From NCBI GenBank assembly GCA_903813345.2, contig CAIIXF020000012.1:372001-436000 (forward strand): a DNA stretch of 64,000 bases, given 5' to 3'. Positions 22,367-59,372 of this stretch are shown here, in pieces (position 1 is the stretch's first letter; each line of letters begins with the position of its first letter). The position numbers and the translations under genes were made by a program. The notes below the pieces were generated by a model. That model did no database searches. It was not told the origin of the DNA and was given only the letters and a program-made list of their open reading frames with translations. Source of the stretch: Owenia fusiformis. Lineage: Eukaryota; Annelida; Polychaeta; Sabellida; Oweniidae.

Positions 22367-22521
22367 ATGAGTGCCACGGCATCTAATCAATCAACAGGGG
22401 CAGAGGGTGGAGCTTCAGGTTCCAGTGAAGATGCCCACCAAGACTCAGGGGAATACGAGTGCAATATATGTCTAGATACAGCAAAAGATGCAGTTGTCAG
22501 TATGTGTGGACATTTATTCTG
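22367..22521 (+). CDS. RNF185: RNF185 exon 1: N-terminus and first half of RING
   Basis: This exon starts at ATGAGTGCC, the first in-frame ATG after the 5' UTR. It encodes a low-complexity leader and the RING up to CGHLF, and ends TTCTG|GTAAGA in phase 2. The split Cys codon (TG|C) restores the invariant CGHLFCWPCLHQW when joined to exon 2. Confidence 0.93.
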
Positions 22522-25500: not shown

Positions 25501-28500
25501 TACATAATAGGCATTGTATTTAAAAGCAGATATTAGCACCAGCTCAGGTACACAAGTTTAATGACCCCAATTAGAGGAAATATGAGCTGGGATGAAAGAA
25601 CTCAAAAATCCTCAATTTTGGGCTGTCCTGGATTACCAAACCTAGCTTATTATATCATGGCATCTCAGGGCAGAGAAGGATTGAGATGTCATGGTTTATC
25701 ATGATGTGTCCGGTGGGAATTGTAGAGAATTTCTTTTGCACAAAATTATCAATTTTAGGAAGCTTGACTTAAAAAAAACAACATTATAACAATTCAATTA
25801 AGTAGTAAGCACACTTAAATGCTAGGAAATAAAGCCAGGGTAAGTAACAAATATGCAAATTAATTTACTCCAAGGGCCATTTTGAATGGCACTTCCTATA
25901 TAAACAAATATTTTTCAATCCCCAATTTTAATATATGTAGACTATAGTCTGAATATTTTCATTCCAAATTTCCCCAAAATTTCAGACTAGAGGATAGTTT
26001 AGTATTTAGTATACTGTTATACATTACAGCTTTGTTTTGCCAAACCCAAGTGGTTAATACTTCTAGCTGGTGGTTGTCCCTTATATAGGATTTTATCCGC
26101 TTCATGATATAGACAGTATACCAGAACCATGAGCTACATGACTATTATTTAGCCCTTTCCACTTGATTACATTCCAGTATTTTATGTACAAGAAAGCTTA
26201 ATGTCAAATTATAAGTATTATATGTAAAAGATTTAATATTTAAATGTCAGAATTAATATGTTAATATAATATTCCTAGCTGGCCGTGCCTTCATCAGTGG
26301 CTTGAAACGCGTCCAAACAGGCAGACATGCCCAGTATGCAAAGCGGGTATTAGCCGAGACAAAGTTATTCCACTATATGGCCGCAATAATACATCTAGGG
26401 AAGACCCTCGGGACAAGGCTCCTCCAAGGCCTCAGGGTCAAAGGTCAGAGCCAGAAAACAATGGGGTGAGTGGCAGTTCACATTACAGCACATTGTTATA
26501 GTTTCTATCATACTTTTTCAAAGTGCTATATTGCCTGGGTTGGTAAGGCCACCCAAATCTTGACACCATTATTCCAGGAAATCTCACCCGATCAACTTTT
26601 AAATAACAGGTACAAAAGCAGACTAGTGCCATTTTGAATTTTTGATAAAATAAGAGTGGTATGTCTCGTTTATGATTCTAGAATTTTCATGTGTTGTTTT
26701 CATATTATATAAACCATTACCGAGGGTCTTTTCCAAAGCTATTGCAAATAATTTATCAATTTGTTAACAAACCTAATACAAAAACAAGCTTTATATTACA
26801 AATGTAACAATTTTCATTTGTTTTAGGCATTCCCTGGATTCAACTTTGGAGATGGTGGCTTTCAAATGTAACAATTTACTTTTGTTTTAGGCATTCCCTG
26901 GGTTCAACTTTGGAGATGGTGGCTTTCAAATGTAACAATTTACATTTGTTTTAGGCATTCCCTGGGTTCAACTTTGGAGATGGTGGCTTTCTGTAACAAT
27001 TTACATTTGTTTTAGGCATTCCCTGGGTTCAACTTTGGAGATGGTGGCTTTCAAATGTAACAATTTACATTTGTTTTAGGCATTCCCTGGGTTCAACTTT
27101 GGAGATGGTGGCTTTCAAATGTAACAATTTACATTTGTTTTAGGCATTCCCTGGGTTCAACTTTGGAGATGGTGGCTTTCAAATGTAACAATTTACATTT
27201 GTTTTAGGCATTCCCTGGGTTCAACTTTGGAGATGGTGGCTTTCAAATGTAACAATTTACATTTGTTTTAGGCATTCCCTGGGTTCAACTTTGGAGATGG
27301 TGGCTTTCAAATGTAACAATTTTCATTTGTTTTAGGCATTCCCTTGGTTCAACTTTTGAGATGGTGGCTTTCAAATGTAACAATTTACATTTGTTTTAGG
27401 CATTCCCTGGGTTCAACTTTGGAGATGGTGACTTTCAAATGTAACAATTTATATTTGTTTTAGGCGTTCCCTGGGTTCAACTTTGGAGATGGTGGCTTTC
27501 AAATGTAACAATTAATATTTGTTTTAGGCATTCCCTGGGTTCAACTTTGGAGATGGTGGCTTTCAGATGTCTTTCGGAATTGGTGCTTTTCCATTTGGAT
27601 TCTTTGCTTCAAACTTTAACATGGGGGACACCCGACCACCAGCTCGTAAGTCACGTTTCCAAATACATCATCTCTGACTGTTTAAAATAAAAAAATCAAT
27701 TCTTGTCCACAACAAAATTGACCTACTCGCCATGTGAAAACAATCAGGTCATTTGTCAGATGTTGATTCCTTGTTTCAACCTAGCATTACATTCATTTAT
27801 ATTGTTTCTTAGTTATGATCCAGACAATATATTACTGTGGTTAACCAACTTTTTCACATCAGACCTTAGTACAGGATTACATTCTGTGTTTTCATTAATA
27901 TCCCTCCAGAACCATTGATAATTCTCAAAATCATAATACACAATATAGTACTAGTGTGTTAGATATACAGGGTGTTCCAAAAGTAACAGGACTGATGCTG
28001 GCATTTTGTCAATACTGCACCGAGTTTGTTCAAATTTTTACAAATTGTACTTTGAAGTAGTGCAACTAGAATTGTAAAGTTTCAGAAGAAATGATAAAAT
28101 GCGGGTGGAGTTATGGCTACTATGGTAACATGACATCACAATACCCGGGGCAACGTTTTCATGAAAATGTTATATCTAACATTTTTGTATTACTGAAGAA
28201 AGTATCTAATTCACCTATTACAATACAACATTTCTTGGTTGTTTTATTAGTTGCTTTGTAGTAATGGTATTGCTATACAACTCAGATTCAAATATGATTT
28301 CATAATAATAATATTTATTCAATTTCCTTAAGACATAACAGTCTGCACAATTCACGGTTGAGTATTGAAAATACCCAATTTGAAGCCAGTCTTCCAACTT
28401 GGTAACGCGCCTGACCACAATTCAGCATTAATAAGACCAATGCAGCTATAGAGGAGCTAGGTCTAGAGGCTTAAGACCATGCACCATGTTCTTCTGATCA

Positions 28501-29140
28501 TGCAATTTATACTTTTTACTTATATGGAGAATGAAATACTAATCAGCGTGGTAAGACCTTTAAAGATGAGAATGGCCGTCTCCAAGTTGTCCTATCGACC
28601 CTGCGTGACATGTCCTCAAATGGGTTCACTCATGTGTTTGAGTCATGGATACAGAGTGCTACTCTTGGGCTGACAAAAAAGGAGCCTACTTTTCAAAGTA
28701 GAGGATACATAGAAATATCAAATGATGTATTTAGCAAATATAATTCCCACCGGTTTTTGGATTTTAACTTTGATATGGGAAGTACAAAATGCTTTAAGTC
28801 TCATAAACTTTTTGCGTGGAATGTTGCCCCGGGTATTGTGATGTCATGTTACCATAGCAACCATAACTCTACCCGAGTTTCATCATTTTTGTCGAACCTT
28901 TTCAGTTTTAGTTACAATATATGAAAGTACATTATGTAAAATTTTGAAGATGATTGGGGCATATTTAACAAAATACCAGCACCAGTCCTGTTACTTTTGG
29001 AACACCCTGTATTAATTGTGCATTTGATTGTTTTGCTTTCAGCTGGACCCGAGACTCCCCAAGCAGCAGAAGAACAGTTCCTCTCTAAAGTATTTCTCTA
29101 TGTAGCCATGCTGTTCATCTTTTGGTTACTAATAGCATAA
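22367..29140 (+). CDS. RNF185: RNF185-type ER membrane E3 ubiquitin ligase (4 exons)
   Basis: A RING-finger E3 ligase anchored in the ER membrane. Its vertebrate relatives RNF185 and RNF5 act in ER-associated degradation. Exons: 22367-22521, 26279-26466, 27528-27645 and 29043-29140, all with GT-AG introns. The N-terminus is Ser/Gly/Glu-rich. The C3HC4 RING uses C32, C35, C47, H49, C52, C55, C69 and C72. It is followed by the family signatures [14 protein letters not shown] and PPRPQGQR, the hydrophobic [15 protein letters not shown] segment, and a C-terminal membrane helix ending FWLLIA-stop. At about 186 residues it is close to the human length (192). Exon 2 has one base too many (see that entry). 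Intron 2 contains 12 tandem copies of the exon 3 acceptor, and introns 1 and 3 carry transposons. Confidence 0.93.
22690..23030. mobile_element. Transposon remnant with long G and C runs
   Basis: This begins with CTGGCGGATTAGGGGGGGG and ends near CCCCCCCTGAGCC, with many GGGCCC and GGCCTTA palindromic words between. Such GGCGGATTTAGGGGG termini are common on hAT-type elements in invertebrates. I could not fix exact ends or a target duplication. Confidence 0.4.
23845..23910. mobile_element. pogo/Tigger-like terminus
   Basis: In reverse orientation the segment begins CAGTAGAACCTGTATATCTG next to TA (23911-23912), the known style of pogo/Tigger ends. Repeated TGTTCAGAT motifs lie inside. Only this end is recognisable, and the hAT-like element at 23916 abuts it. 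A similar CAGTAGAACCTGG start occurs at 46431. Confidence 0.5.
23916..25472. mobile_element. hAT-like element with 6-bp target duplication GTAATC
   Basis: The termini are CAGGGCTTGCATTA and the complement of CAGCGCTTGCATTA. GTAATC is on both flanks (23910-23915 and 25473-25478). Subterminal GGGACACA/GGACGCAAA motifs are present at both ends, and related motifs are scattered at 23500-23570 outside it. The length is 1557 bp and no transposase is visible, so it is non-autonomous. It shares the CAG...CTG ends and the 6-bp target length of the elements at 9972 and 17952 but has a different inner terminus. Confidence 0.8.
26279..26466 (+). CDS. RNF185: RNF185 exon 2: rest of RING, with +1 frameshift
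   Basis: This exon enters in phase 2 (C completes the split Cys) and encodes [20 protein letters not shown] then [19 protein letters not shown]. After the run GGGG at 26398-26401 the family sequence continues ([20 protein letters not shown]) only in the next frame. The exon ends GGG|GTGAGT. Its length of 188 nt is one more than the phases of its neighbours allow. Both sides are otherwise perfect, so a sequencing or assembly error in the G run is the simplest reading; a real disabling allele is the alternative. Confidence 0.85.
26807..27563 (+). repeat. 64-bp tandem array of the exon 3 splice acceptor, 12 copies
   Basis: Each unit carries the acceptor TTTGTTTTAG|GCATTCCCTGG and the following exon-like sequence up to GGTGGCTTTCAAATGTAA. 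Exon-like starts fall at 26827, 26891, 26955, 27016, 27080, 27144, 27208, 27272, 27336, 27400, 27464 and 27528. Spacing is 64 bp except one 61-bp unit. Only the copy at 27528 runs into the rest of exon 3. Splicing to any of the eleven others would end the protein within 16 codons at an in-frame TAA, before both membrane segments. Confidence 0.95.
27528..27645 (+). CDS. RNF185: RNF185 exon 3: first hydrophobic segment
   Basis: This encodes [19 protein letters not shown], then [20 protein letters not shown], matching the [20 protein letters not shown] core of RNF185. It enters in phase 0 from the acceptor TTTTAG and ends GCTC|GTAAGT in phase 1. The true exon departs from the repeat unit at CAGATGTCTTTC, where the repeats read CAAATGTAAC. 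Confidence 0.93.
27968..29009. mobile_element. mariner-type foldback in RNF185 intron 3
   Basis: The ends are CAGGGTGTTCCAAAAGTAAC and its complement, flanked by TA (27966-27967 and 29010-29011). The arms match inward for some 220 bp, far longer than normal mariner ends. Between them is a decayed transposase tail. Its right end lies 33 bp before the exon 4 acceptor, so the polypyrimidine tract and probable branch site fit entirely into the 33 bp left. Confidence 0.85.
28530..28705 (+). pseudogene. mariner transposase C-terminal remnant
   Basis: The readings [20 protein letters not shown] and, one base shifted, [14 protein letters not shown]-stop fit the C-terminus of mariner/Tc1-type transposases (a Trp/Arg/Cys-rich tail ending G.YFE or similar). 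One frameshift lies near 28640. The catalytic DDD/E part is missing. Confidence 0.5.
29043..29140 (+). CDS. RNF185: RNF185 exon 4: C-terminal membrane anchor
   Basis: This follows the acceptor TTTGCTTTCAG. It encodes [18 protein letters not shown], then [14 protein letters not shown] and stop TAA. The Glu-Gln-Phe-Leu-Ser motif followed by a hydrophobic helix and a short C-tail is the family's second membrane segment. Confidence 0.92.
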
Positions 29141-29405
29141 ACTCTTGTTACCATGGTAACTCTGAATGTGAACATGTCACCATGGTAACTCTGAATGTGA
29201 ACATGTCACCATGTGTACACTGTGAATGCGATCTTGTCACCATGGTAATTCTGAATGTGAACATGTCACCATGGTAACTCTGAATGTGAACATGTCACCA
29301 TGTGTACACTGTGAATGCGATCTTGTCACCATGGTAATTCTGAATGTGAACATGTCACCAAGGTAACTCTGTATTTGAACATGTCACTATATACTGTGAA
29401 AGTAA
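29141..29405 (+). repeat. 29-bp minisatellite in the RNF185 3' region
   Basis: Units of GTCACCATGGTAACTCTGAA plus TGTGAACAT, with a variant GTCACCATGTGTACACTG. About nine copies start directly after the stop codon, so the array is probably transcribed in the 3' UTR. Confidence 0.8.
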
Positions 29406-30215
29406 AAATGTCACCATATTTATACAGTAATTGGGAAAATGTTAGTAAGGATTGGACATCCTATGAAATTATTGTATCATCATCAGGCTCTTTATTTTAT
29501 TTGGTTCATATTATAACATGCATTCTATACAGTTTCTATGAAAATGGAAAATTAAGTTTGAAGACTTTAGTCCATGGTATGACTTCCGAATATGAAGGAT
29601 CCGTAGCACACTCTAGCGCAGCAACATTTGAAGCAATATTTATGAAAGTGTACATGTCTTGATTCTTTTAAAATACCATTTGCTGAAAAAACTTCCGGCT
29701 TTCGGGTCGAACAATGTCTTTCATCACAAGGGGTCAAAAAACGTAAATATTTCAATTCGAACTTTTATACATTTTATAAGACACAGACCGTTATTCTTAG
29801 CATACGAACAAAAATAAATTATCATAATTTAGAAATATTCTATTTAATTTAACCGTAGTTAACTTCAAATATGAGCCAAGCCGATCCAACAAAATTATGT
29901 GGAATATTTAGGTAATTTATGATTGGGAACATATTAGTTTTCTTACCATTTAAAACATTTTATTACCAGAATTTTTCCATATAATCGCAAGGGGTTTAAC
30001 AACAAATTATTGTTCATGTTTTACAAAACATAATACAATAACAAATAGGTAAGATTTATATCTAATTAAATGTTACAGAGGTATTGGAATGTTCATATAT
30101 TCCAAGGGCATGTCTAATTAAATCAATTAGAGTCATATGCAATCGAACGCCCTGAAATTCTTCCTCGACGTTACTTGTGGCTATCATCAAGTTTTCTGAT
30201 GGCTATTTGTTTTTA
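29406..30215. other. AT-rich region downstream of RNF185
   Basis: Likely 3' UTR and flank. I could not fix a poly(A) site. The open frame 29315-29662 partly covers the minisatellite and has no recognisable domain. Confidence 0.35.
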
Positions 30216-36910: not shown

Positions 36911-37342
36911 TGGCTACTGCTAAGAAGAGGATCACTGAAGTAACCTGATGCCACTAGGTCAGTTTACAAGCCTATTTCACTGACTTCCATTCAGCTCATG
37001 TTACAACATCCAATGATATCACCTAACAAATAGCCTACAATGATTCTAATCTCCCCTTGTGAATCACATGTTTTTTGCTTGTCTGGTGTAAAATTAGATA
37101 AATAAGGTAAGTTTGACACTTTTATTTTGTACAATATATAAACAATTATTTAACTTACAAAGATAATATCCTATTGCATCTCATTATACTCATTATAAAA
37201 AAGGGCATGACGTTTATTGTACCAATACCATAGGCATAGCCCCCCCCCCAAATAAATTATATTTTGATTCTAATTTAAATTATAATTATTTTCCAGTTTA
37301 TTTGAAGCATACAATATGTTACGTTTGTTTTTTAGTTGAGAA

Positions 37343-38384
37343 ATGGATACGGTTGATATGGATATTTGGTCCGATGACGAAGCGTTTGCAAATATTGATC
37401 TAGAGCAATACAATTATGAGAATACGATCCCTGGTTGTTTGGAAAAAACAGGTCCAGATAAATTGGAACAGACATCTACTGATCATGTTGACAATGTCCA
37501 AGACCGTGTGAACCAGATAGCCCCTTATTGTATGAACCAGATAGCCCCTGATCGTGTGAACCAGACAGCCCCTGATCGTGTGAACCAGATAAACCCTGAT
37601 TGCGTGAACCAGAAAGCCCCTGATCGTGTGATCCAGATAGCCCCTGATCGTGTGAACCAGATAGCCCCTGATTGTGTGAATCAGATAAACCCTGATTGTG
37701 TGAGCCAGATAGACCCTGATTGCCTGAACCAGATAGCCCCCGATTGCGTGAACCAGATAGACCCTGATTGCCTGAACCAGATAGTCCCCGATCGTGTGAA
37801 CCAGATAAACCCTGATTGCGTGAACCAGATAGCCCCTGATAATGTGAACCAGATAGCCCCTGATCGTGTGATCCAGATAGCCCCTGATCGTGTGAACCTG
37901 ATAGCCCCTGATCGTGTGAATCAGATAAACCCTGATTGCGTGAACCAGATAGCCCCTGATTGTGTGAATCAGATAGAACCTGATTGCCTGAACCAGATAG
38001 CCCCCGATTGGGTTAACCAGATAGACCCTGATTGTATGAGCCAGATAGACCCTGATTGCCTGAACCAGATATCCCCCAATTGCGTGAACCAGACACCCCC
38101 TGTTTGTGTGAGTCAGATAGACCCTGATTGCGTCAACCATATAGACCCTGATTGCCTGAACCAGATAGCCCCCGATTGCCTGAACCAGATAGCCCCCGAT
38201 TGCCTGGACCAGATAGCCCCCGATTGTGTGAACCAGATATTCCAAGATTGTGTGAACCAGATAGCCCCTGATTGTGTGAAGAAGGCAGCTCCTGATCATG
38301 AATTAGATATAACCCCCAACGTCCTTGATACATTGTTTAATCCACCCGGCTGGGATCAGAACATAAATCTACCAACCTTCGCAG
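37343..38384 (+). CDS. Exon 1: acidic leader and 24-bp/8-residue repeats
   Basis: This exon starts at ATGGATACG, 8 nt after a good acceptor (TTTGTTTTTTAG). The first 60 residues are acidic (MDTVDMDIWSDDEAFANIDL). Then come about 33 copies of an 8-residue unit NQIAPDCV with variants NQINPDCV, SQIDPDCL and NQIAPDRV, to about residue 320. The exon ends CTTCGCAG|GTAAAC; joining to 38598 keeps the frame (A-G-N-Q-E-M). All repeats are exact multiples of 24 bp, so the frame is kept despite copy-number change. The function of the repeat is unknown to me. Confidence 0.7.
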
Positions 38385-38597
38385 GTAAACATTTGAATAC
38401 ATTTGAAACATTTGAATAAAATAGCCCTAGTAATTGCATAACATTTTATTACTTTTGAAATAGTTCTATTAGCTTATTTTGTAATAATTTGTTATACCTA
38501 TTTGGAATCTATATTGTGTAATTTGTGATTGAAAAATAACATCGATATCTTATTAATTCATATTATTGACAGTGTGTTTAAGATATTCCATTTGTAG

Positions 38598-44712: not shown

Positions 44713-44879
44713 TTAACGTCTAATACCGTTCTGCATGCTTGACTGCGCTCCCCAAGACCTGTTGCCAGAATCCTTCTTGATGGGGCTAGCTGGGAGAGAC
44801 TGCGCCGCAGAGCTGACAGATTTGATTTCCTCCGTCTTCGTAATTGAACCATGCGACCTTTGCCTCGGAAGAGTAGGGG
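44713..44879 (-). CDS. Possible terminal exon, Ser/Lys-rich tail
   Basis: The acceptor TTTTCACTTTCAG|CCCCTACTC opens a 55-codon reading (PTLPRQRSHGSITKTEEIKS, then ASPIKKDSGNRSWGAQSS) ending in TAA. Base composition is clearly richer in G and C than the neighbourhood, and the frame is the only long one after the acceptor. A consensus donor CGAG|GTAAGT at 45025 on the same strand has compatible phase, but the exon before it has at most 43 open bases, so the upstream gene structure is uncertain. No homology recognised. Confidence 0.35.
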
Positions 44880-44980
44880 CTGAAAGTGAAAATAATATAC
44901 AATAACACGATGAAGTAGGGGCTGAAAGTGAAAATAATATACAATAACACGATGAAGTAGGGGCTGAAAGTGAAAATATA
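44880..44980 (-). repeat. 42-bp tandem triplication of a splice acceptor
   Basis: Unit CCCCTACTTCATCGTGTTAT plus TGTATATTATTTTCACTTTCAG. Acceptor|exon junctions fall at 44963, 44921 and 44879. The unit is 14 codons with no stop, so use of an upstream acceptor would add 14 or 28 residues in frame. Confidence 0.8.
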
Positions 44981-45025
44981 TAATAAAAGTGATGGTGTCG
45001 AACATTGAGCATGATATAACTTACC

Positions 45026-48334: not shown

Positions 48335-48805
48335 TCCATTTGGCGCGTATGTCACTCTCCCTGCAGCTTCCGAAATAGTTCGTTAACCAATCATTTGACG
48401 CATACATCACTCTCCTTGTAGATTCCGAAATAGTTCGTTAAACAATCATTTGACGCATACATCACTCTCCTTGCAGCTTCCGAAATAGTTCGTTAACCAA
48501 TCATTTGGCGCGTATATCTCTCTCCTTGCAGCTTCCAAATAGTTCGTTAACCAATCATTTGACGCATACATCACTCTCCTTGCAGCTTCCGAAATAGTTC
48601 GTTAACCAATCATTTGGCGCATATATCACTCTCCTTGCAGCTTCCAAATCGTTAACCAATCATTTGACGCATACATCACTCTCCTTGCAGCTTCCGAAAT
48701 AGTTCGTCATCATTCTTCTTGTAGCTTCAAAATAGTTCGTTAACCAAACATTTGGCGCGTATATCATTCTTCTTGTAGCTTCAAAATAGTTCATTAACCA
48801 ATTGA
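48335..48805. repeat. 55-bp minisatellite
   Basis: Unit CATTTGACGCATACATCACT plus CTCCTTGCAGCTTCCGAAAT and AGTTCGTTAACCAAT, about 8 copies with TTTGGCGCGTATATC variants and a few shortened units. Confidence 0.85.
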
Positions 48806-51327: not shown

Positions 51328-53013
51328 CTATCTAGGGCTGTTGGGTTGTGGAGGGGTGCCTTCTGGACTATAAAAGTTCTCGTCCACACTACTCGTGTAT
51401 GTTAGTTCAAAGCTGCCATTACTGTTAAGGGGTCGTCTCCTGCCAGGCATAAATGTTGACTGAACGGGTGCAGTTGATGACGTATTAGTGATCTCGGATG
51501 ACGGAATTGTCCCGCCATCCATCGTTTTGCTTCTTTCTATACGCTCGCGGCGACGTCTACGGCGATTAGGGGTAGGGGAGTTACCCGTCTCACCTTCTTG
51601 ATCACCCGCCGTGTTTTCCGTTGACTTCCTCGTGCTCTGGAGGCTCCGACTCCTCGTATTGACTGCCTTGTCCTCCATATTGGGGCAATTGGTGTTCATG
51701 CCTTTCTCCATGCATGGGTAGAATGGCTTGTCAAGGGCCTTGATGCGGGGCATTATAGCGGTGAGATGGGTTTGTGTTTCAACTTCAGCTAGACTTACGT
51801 CACTCTTGTCGCTTTCGTAGCTTTCCTCATCAGAAAACGATTCATCTAGGTCCTCTTTGCATGTCTGGGTGGCCGTCTCAGATATAAGATCAGACTCACT
51901 CAGTCTCTCTGTGGACGTTATTCTCTTGGCCCTCAGTCGCGAGAGCATCGGTCTCTCTGGGTCCTGTACGTAGCCAAAGTCCAGCTTGCCTGGGAAGAAT
52001 GTCACCTTCTTACCTACCGACCCGGGTAGTGCTTCGATCTTCAATTCTTTCAGATGGCCTAGCTTCTCGGATACTTGCTTCTTAAGTAGAAGCAGTTCTA
52101 TATCTTTTCCTTTAAGGATCAATTCAGTCAAATTACATGTACTTTTCAGTCCCTCTAGATTTGTTGCCATTTCACCTTTGCGTTTTATAAACTCCATGGT
52201 ATCTCGTCCATATATGGTATGCAACTCTTCTATCAAATACTTCTCTCTGTTGCGTATATCCGAAATGAACTCGAGAGCAGTATCATGGATCAACTTTTCG
52301 GCGTTTTGTACGTGCTCTTCGCATTCAGTAAGAGATTCTAACTGTTCCTCAAATTTATTGATCTTTCCAGTACATGTACGAAGGAGGTTCTCGATGTTAT
52401 CTTTATATTTAATGACGGACTCTTGAAAATTCGAAATATCGTGGTCCTTGTGCTCGTTGAATGTACAGAGAACACAGATGCACGTCTCGCAGGGTTCACA
52501 GTAGAATCTGACCACCTCATCTTGATGCTCCTTACATTCAATGTCTTTCTCTATCTCGACATCGAATATGCTATGATCCTTCGTCACTTTAGTGGTCTTG
52601 TGAAGCTCAAGGCAAGACTTACAAAGCAACTTGGCGCAATCCAGACATTTTGAGGCAGCTTCCCGGTGTTTCCGGTTTACCATCTTACAGATGTCGCAAA
52701 AGGGGAACTTAGAGGGTCGTTGACGCTGGACAACTTCACCAAGGCTGGAGACGAGAAAATTATCGGGGAGTTTCTTGACTCCGCCGATAGGTAGCGTTGT
52801 GCGTTTTCTACACAACGGGCAGGTGAACTCCCTGTAGTCGGAATACTTCTTGTAGGAGCCTTCCGACTCTGCATGATTCTGGATACACACCTCACAGAAA
52901 GTATGGAGACAATTCAAACTTTTGGGATTCTTATAGCCTTCAAGACAGATTTTACAAACGAGAAACTCATCATGAATCTCCTGGGCTAGTTTTCCACCCG
53001 CCGTTGTCGTCAT
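51328..53013 (-). CDS. TRIM-type E3 ubiquitin ligase (RING, two B-boxes, coiled coil)
   Basis: A single-exon, 561-residue protein. RING C3HC4: C20, C23, C35, H37, C40, C43, C65, C68. B-box 1 at about 106-147 (C106, C109, C123, C126, C131, C134). B-box 2 at about 160-191 (C160, H163, C172, C175, C180, C183, H188, H191). A predicted coiled coil runs to about residue 330. After that come GKLDFGYVQDPERPMLS, then a long, probably disordered Ser/Thr/Glu tail with an Arg cluster near 495. There is no NHL, SPRY or filamin domain, unlike most invertebrate TRIMs with this head. An acceptor (TGTATTTTCAG) ends at 53052 on the minus strand, so a 5' UTR intron is likely. TRIMs ubiquitinate targets, often in innate signalling; the target here is unknown. 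Confidence 0.9.
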   Translation of the reverse strand: MTTTAGGKLAQEIHDEFLVCKICLEGYKNPKSLNCLHTFCEVCIQNHAESEGSYKKYSDYREFTCPLCRKRTTLPIGGVKKLPDNFLVSSLGEVVQRQRPSKFPFCDICKMVNRKHREAASKCLDCAKLLCKSCLELHKTTKVTKDHSIFDVEIEKDIECKEHQDEVVRFYCEPCETCICVLCTFNEHKDHDISNFQESVIKYKDNIENLLRTCTGKINKFEEQLESLTECEEHVQNAEKLIHDTALEFISDIRNREKYLIEELHTIYGRDTMEFIKRKGEMATNLEGLKSTCNLTELILKGKDIELLLLKKQVSEKLGHLKELKIEALPGSVGKKVTFFPGKLDFGYVQDPERPMLSRLRAKRITSTERLSESDLISETATQTCKEDLDESFSDEESYESDKSDVSLAEVETQTHLTAIMPRIKALDKPFYPCMEKGMNTNCPNMEDKAVNTRSRSLQSTRKSTENTAGDQEGETGNSPTPNRRRRRRERIERSKTMDGGTIPSSEITNTSSTAPVQSTFMPGRRRPLNSNGSFELTYTSSVDENFYSPEGTPPQPNSPR

Positions 53014-53051
53014 GGTAACCAGGTGTTCGTATCACGGGGCAACGGAAAAAT

Positions 53052-58585: not shown

Positions 58586-59372
58586 CCTGAGGCAACAATG
58601 CAATACCACACTCTTACTCTGAGGCTAGAAGCAATACAATACTACACTCTTACCCTGAGGCTAGAAGTAATGCAATTCCACACTCTTACCCCGAGGCTAG
58701 AAGTAATGCAATACCACACTCTTACCCCGAGGCTAGAAGTAATGCAATACCACACTCTTACCCTGAGACTAGAAGTGAAAAATACCACACTCTTACCCTG
58801 AGGCTAGAAGTAATGCAATACCACACTCTTACCCTGAGGCTAGAACAAACGTTATACCACACTCCTACCCTGAGGCTTGCAGTAATGCAATACCACACTC
58901 TTACCCTGAGGCTAGAACAAACGTTATACCACACTCCTACCCTGAGGCTTGCATTTACCATTCTCTTACCCTGAGGTTAAAACTAATGCAATACCACACT
59001 CTTACCCCGAGGCTAGAACAAACGTTATACCACACTCCTACCCTGAGGCTTGCAGTAATGCAATACCACACTCTTACTCTGAGGCTAGAACAAATGTTAT
59101 ACCACACTCTTACCCTGAGGTTAGAAGTAATGCAATACCACACTCTTACCCTGAGGTTAGAACAAATGTTATACCACACTCTTACCCTGAGGTTAGAAGT
59201 AATGCAATGCCACACTCTTACCCTGAGGCAAAAAGTAATGCAATACCACACTCTTACCCTGAGGCAAAAAGTAATGCAATACCACACTCTTACACTGAGG
59301 CTAGAAGTAATGCAATACCACACTCTTACACTGAGGCTAGAAGTAATGCAATACCATACTCTGATCACGACT
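58586..59372. repeat. 36-bp minisatellite, about 21 units
   Basis: Unit TAATGCAATACCACACTCTT plus ACCCTGAGGCTAGAAG. Alternating variants carry AACAAACGTTATACC in place of AGTAATGCAATACC. The multiple-of-three period leaves several frames open on both strands (for example SYPEARSNAIPH on plus), which is expected of such an array. Confidence 0.9.

Follow-up and report, generated by a model that had tools for sequence, protein, structure and literature searches.

Does a splice acceptor that stands twelve times in a row act as a regulatory device, or is it a repeat that fell by chance on an exon border, and how would splicing find the one copy that is of use? This question is raised by a RING-ligase gene in the stretch of 64,000 bases analysed here (the window; GC 36.1%). 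By conceptual splicing, the gene is intact over four exons on the plus strand, and its conceptual product has 185 aa. The coding part of exon 1 (22367..22521), which begins at a presumed ATG and opens a frame with the RING domain, ends in TTCTG/gtaaga (slashes mark splice borders throughout). Exon 2 (26279..26465) has the donor AATGGG/gtgagt at 26466, exon 3 (27528..27645, 118 nt) has the donor CAGCTC/gtaagt, and exon 4 (29043..29140) contains the stop codon and codes for a C-terminal hydrophobic segment. Both the donor at 26466 and the start of exon 3 at 27528 are as given in the initial annotation, and the exon coordinates yield introns of 1062 and 1397 nt around exon 3. The product has an N-terminal C3HC4 RING (residues 32-72; Pfam zf-C3HC4, E 9.9e-11) and a C-terminal hydrophobic anchor (residues 166-184, mean hydropathy 2.34). 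Two RING-type matches in NCBIfam lie far under the cut-offs, and a structure search with the product yielded RING proteins but no RNF185 chain in the best 60 of 95 matches. From its likeness to the vertebrate protein we take the gene to be RNF185-like, RNF5 being another possible name. The gene has two further repeat features: a second minisatellite (29143-29417, plus strand), 3 nt past the stop codon and in the presumed 3' untranslated region, and an element in intron 3 (27965-29012) with 193-nt inverted ends that are 82% complementary and 662 nt apart, which ends about 30 nt before exon 4.

The border between intron 2 and exon 3 lies in a tandem array that TRF places at 26799..27570 on the plus strand (period 64, 12.1 copies, 96% matches, score 1439) and that, as a repeat, is far beyond chance. 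Each unit combines 28 intronic nt, the end of the intron including its AG, with 36 exonic nt, copy 4 being short by 3 nt. In all 12 units, the intronic part terminates in TTTGTTTTAG, and the 36 nt after it repeat the start of exon 3 exactly or almost exactly, so that intron end and exon start fall within one tandem unit; TTTTAG/G is present in 12/12 units, with scores of 4.1-7.7 on a rough weight matrix. The eleven upstream units (26799..27499), referred to below as decoys, have AGs ending at 26826, 26890, 26954, 27015, 27079, 27143, 27207, 27271, 27335, 27399, and 27463, and the AG of the twelfth unit (27500..27563) ends at 27527; the spacing is 64 nt with a single exception of 61. Twelve tandem copies of the exon 3 acceptor in a 64-bp unit straddling the border, as the initial annotation had it, are thus confirmed by TRF and by the AG positions. 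Its limits of 26807-27563 located the array correctly and understated its extent, the true repeat being about 8 nt longer on each side.

Only the AG at 27527 opens the full reading frame, being the sole one of the 12 whose use leads to the 185-aa protein. The conceptual products of the other 11 all stop early, after 121-128 codons, ten of them at TAA and one (copy 9) at a TGA that falls earlier, inside the exonic part of the unit. The claim that every decoy runs into an in-frame TAA as GGFQM-stop therefore stands for the early stop (11/11) and fails for the exact ending in 3/11: eight decoy products end in GGFQM-TAA, copy 10 in GDFQM-TAA, copy 3 in GGFL-TAA, and copy 9 in WFNF with TGA. By the 50-nt rule, an early stop that lies upstream of the last junction by more than about 50 nt sends an mRNA to nonsense-mediated decay, and decoy mRNAs are predicted to take this route because their stops lie 137-774 nt upstream of the exon 3/4 junction in 11/11 cases. 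The results likewise support the suggestion that decoy use would give either a RING protein of 121-128 aa without the hydrophobic segment at its C-terminus or an mRNA expected to undergo nonsense-mediated decay. Directly after the last unit is an extra AG (27565..27566, plus strand), a candidate acceptor that scores 4.55 against 4.12 at 27527; its use would keep the frame and the C-terminus and lose 13 codons.

What might single out the last AG is not apparent from its strength. By the matrix it is the lowest of the 12 (4.12 vs 5.83-7.66 for the decoys), so a stronger true site finds no support as the cause of its choice. Little weight can be put on this ranking, since the same matrix gives only 2.73 to the acceptor of exon 2 in this gene and as much as 8.38 to an unrelated AG within an intron, at 26577; the exon 4 acceptor scores 8.42. 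Splicing of the decoys as micro-exons was also considered and set aside. Donors inside the units are mostly weak (ATG/GTGGCT 4.4, AAT/GTAACA 2.1) relative to the gene's own (5.96, 9.14, and 10.79), the exception being ATG/GTGACT in copy 10, which at 6.11 slightly outscores the donor of exon 3; small decoy exons can for this reason be called unlikely and no more than that.

RNA structure could in principle gate the choice, if a 9-bp hairpin, CAAATGTAA-CAAT-TTACATTTG, hid the branch region in the decoys and two substitutions opened it in the last copy. The perfect hairpin is present in 6/12 copies and is weaker in the last one (-6.1 vs -2.4 kcal/mol), and only 4/5000 mononucleotide-shuffled units carry such a hairpin. 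However, copies 1, 2, 4, and 9 have an even weaker hairpin than copy 12 (-2.2, -2.1, -1.4, and -2.2 kcal/mol, respectively), copy 12 comes only third to fifth for openness of the branch region over three window sizes, the folding model counts its AG stretch among the least open, and 20/26 places in the window with such a hairpin lie outside the array. With four decoys weaker and a folding model that fails to separate copy 12, we reject the hairpin as the main cause of last-AG choice and regard gating by structure as extremely unlikely. None of the features tested (matrix strength, hairpin, and openness) marks out the twelfth AG among the 12. The splice-site and structure models thus give it no edge over the decoys, and use of the decoys is possible by these models.

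Published work on competing acceptors also bears on the choice. In the passages of Carranza et al. cited here (PMC9225289), the upstream one of two competing 3' sites is preferred when they are 20 nt or more apart; this preference is weaker, with no reversal stated, when both introns are long, and the authors conclude that long flanking introns favour those sites that are nearest to each other across the exon. Since 27527 scores lowest, is little open, and stands downstream of its competitors, neither proximity nor strength by itself would predict that the last AG is used faithfully.

The variation among the copies bears on how the array arose and whether the decoys are maintained. Copies 3 and 5-8 are identical (5/12 units), and the rest differ from them in one to three positions or, in one case, by a 3-nt deletion. 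Substitutions are confined to copies 1, 2, and 9-12, toward the ends of the array, a pattern typical of repeats that turn over, and the 3-nt deletion is in the interior copy 4; the array thus has a homogenised interior and divergent ends. The 12 units comprise 8 distinct sequences whose variants form an ordered pattern, with one change common to copies 11 and 12 and another to copies 1 and 9. Pairwise identity is 92-100% with a mean of 97% (55 pairs, copy 4 with its deletion being left out). In the decoys, substitutions are about equally frequent in the exonic part (5/396 nt) and in the intronic part (4/280 nt, copy 4 being omitted from the intronic count because of its deletion). The five exonic changes, judged by eye against the frame, are two synonymous, two missense, and one nonsense, so no constraint is visible, and the decoys have the appearance of neutral copies of the repeat. 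At the duplication junction, the intronic 5' edge TTACAAATGT and the exonic 3' edge TTTCAGATGT match at 8/10 bases, a level reached by 151/20,000 random pairs in the window, which suggests that the array arose via duplication at an imperfect microhomology.

The surroundings are rich in repeats as well. Tandem arrays cover 16% of the window (10,223 of 64,000 bases, counting all 73 TRF rows with a score of 50 or more), and it is therefore not surprising that one of them lies on a splice border of the gene. If arrays were placed blindly, independently, and without constraint, the chance that one touches at least one of the gene's six splice borders would be about 65%.

Several other arrays and open frames in the window deserve mention in their own right. 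On the minus strand, 44872-44982 is a candidate second acceptor array (42-bp unit, 2.7 copies, 98%) in which TTTTCACTTTCAG/CCCCTACT, a good-looking acceptor, occurs three times, with AGs at 44964, 44922, and 44880. It precedes a stretch with a GC content of 54%, which 1.8% of 160-nt windows attain; its unit length is divisible by three, and no frame meets a stop within the copies, the open runs that start at the first AG being 97, 58, and 82 codons long. Pfam and NCBIfam gave no family match above cut-off, and 25/200 shuffled units reached its score; for these reasons we treat this possible second border-spanning array, with in-frame copies, as a lead and not as a finding. The array at 48337-48707 (plus strand, 55-bp x 6.9) has a unit with CACTCTCCTTGCAG/CTTCC, whose acceptor motif scores 10.0, the top value among the arrays listed, and 4/200 shuffles reach 10.0. 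At 58597-59362, a 36-bp x 21.5 array reads on the minus strand as ACTTCTAGCCTCAG/G/GTAAGA, an acceptor motif followed immediately by a donor motif. A 359-codon open frame, counted from stop to stop (37340-38416, plus strand), is mostly a 24-bp x 32 repeat (37506-38280) and is a possible coding minisatellite; all of its Pfam matches are under cut-off. The minus strand also has a 567-codon open frame, again from stop to stop (51331-53031), with RING and B-box, which is TRIM-like.

We consider it likely that the array is a minisatellite that by chance straddles a splice acceptor, a 'mirage' structure, whose last AG is used enough and whose copy number is nearly neutral. Its history would have begun when the similarity of CAAATGT in the intron to CAGATGT in the exon led to a tandem duplication of the 64-nt border, after which slippage or unequal exchange would have multiplied and homogenised the unit. 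Exon 2 would be joined to the last AG often enough to provide functional mRNA, this AG being picked via recognition of the 118-nt exon together with its downstream donor. Mis-spliced transcripts would be cleared by nonsense-mediated decay, and use of the upstream copies would amount to low-level noise, leaving copy number variable and close to neutral. For exon recognition and the decay of mis-spliced RNA, we infer more from the lancelet precedent than from the array's own sequence.

A regulatory role would require that upstream acceptors be used to a set extent, so that the resulting mRNAs decay or yield a soluble RING fragment and copy number tunes the amount of membrane-bound ligase. Such a role would fit the complete-looking acceptor, the score above that of the true site, and the early stop found in 11/11 decoys, a truncated product that retains the RING and loses the hydrophobic segment, and the upstream preference in site competition described in the cited part of PMC9225289. 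Against it, the decoys look neutral, copy 9 even stopping within its exonic part, and the lancelet arrays are reported or suggested, in the sections cited, to leave splicing undisturbed (PMC3087553, PMC3902484). We judge it unlikely, and the proposal in the initial annotation that the array sets the ratio of membrane-bound to truncated ligase is left unsupported by the same observations. A more specific form of this role, in which twelve near-equal acceptors in the gene of an ER quality-control ligase are a fast-mutating copy-number dial and each added copy diverts some transcripts, either into decay or into making a soluble RING fragment, appears quite improbable; if true, ligase dose would differ between individuals or between cells of one animal. 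The array might also be an assembly artefact, with one or a few true copies expanded by the assembler, and an aberrantly assembled array is noted for a draft genome in the cited part of PMC3087553. However, 8 distinct sequences with ordered variants are unlike the simple duplication of one read stretch, so at least several copies are probably real, although their assembled number may be in error, and we hold a pure artefact to be highly unlikely.

The locus is a natural form of a classic splicing test, in which many near-identical acceptors stand in a row and the last alone is useful. If splicing settles cleanly on the last AG, exon recognition or decay would strongly overrule proximity and site strength; otherwise, copy number would serve as a natural dial of gene dose. 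The array adds a gene to the small published set of border-spanning arrays, and a host other than a lancelet would widen the range of mirages described in the papers cited below. A description of such an array in RNF185 was not found in a literature search that covered this gene in part, and a search of viral contigs for a relative confirmed none, five pattern matches having failed tblastn.

Among known systems, poison exons and alternative 3' splice sites coupled to nonsense-mediated decay are conserved and of demonstrated use. The decoys resemble poison exons in that use of an upstream site would lead to an early stop before the last junction, in all 11 decoys by more than about 50 nt; they differ in being putative sites, whereas conservation and use have been shown for poison exons. 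The human minisatellite of DDX3Y, as described in the cited part of PMC3039753, lies upstream at a transcription start and is not the same structure. In lancelet PGBD5, 60-bp and 108-bp repeats are tandem units that overlap exon borders, as here, and their copy number differs between two genome versions (2 vs 7 and 3 vs 6); the gene is another one, and the portion of the source cited terms these repeats imperfect and splicing across them predicted rather than measured (PMC3902484). Closest are the 'mirage' minisatellites of amphioxus Adh3, BflGb6, and BflGb9 (PMC3087553), together with a lancelet TnC mirage cited in PMC3902484. According to the sections used, these clusters evolve concertedly inside with the edges exempt, BflGb6 has 6 and 3 units in two haplotypes, and border-spanning arrays are put forward as an origin of new introns (PMC3087553); the Adh and troponin C arrays are cited as producing no aberrant mRNAs (PMC3902484), and normal splicing is reported or suggested for lancelet mirages of like anatomy (PMC3087553, PMC3902484). 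The array here has in common with the amphioxus mirages, as far as these sections describe them, a tandem intron end and exon start, AG signals, a homogenised interior, and divergent ends, and its 64-bp unit is within their range (10-72 bp in Adh3, 150-160 bp in BflGb6); it differs in its gene and in having 12 units against the 6 and 3 of BflGb6. Taken together, these comparisons indicate that the structure looks like a type already known as lancelet mirages, of which the array would be a striking example and not a new switch.
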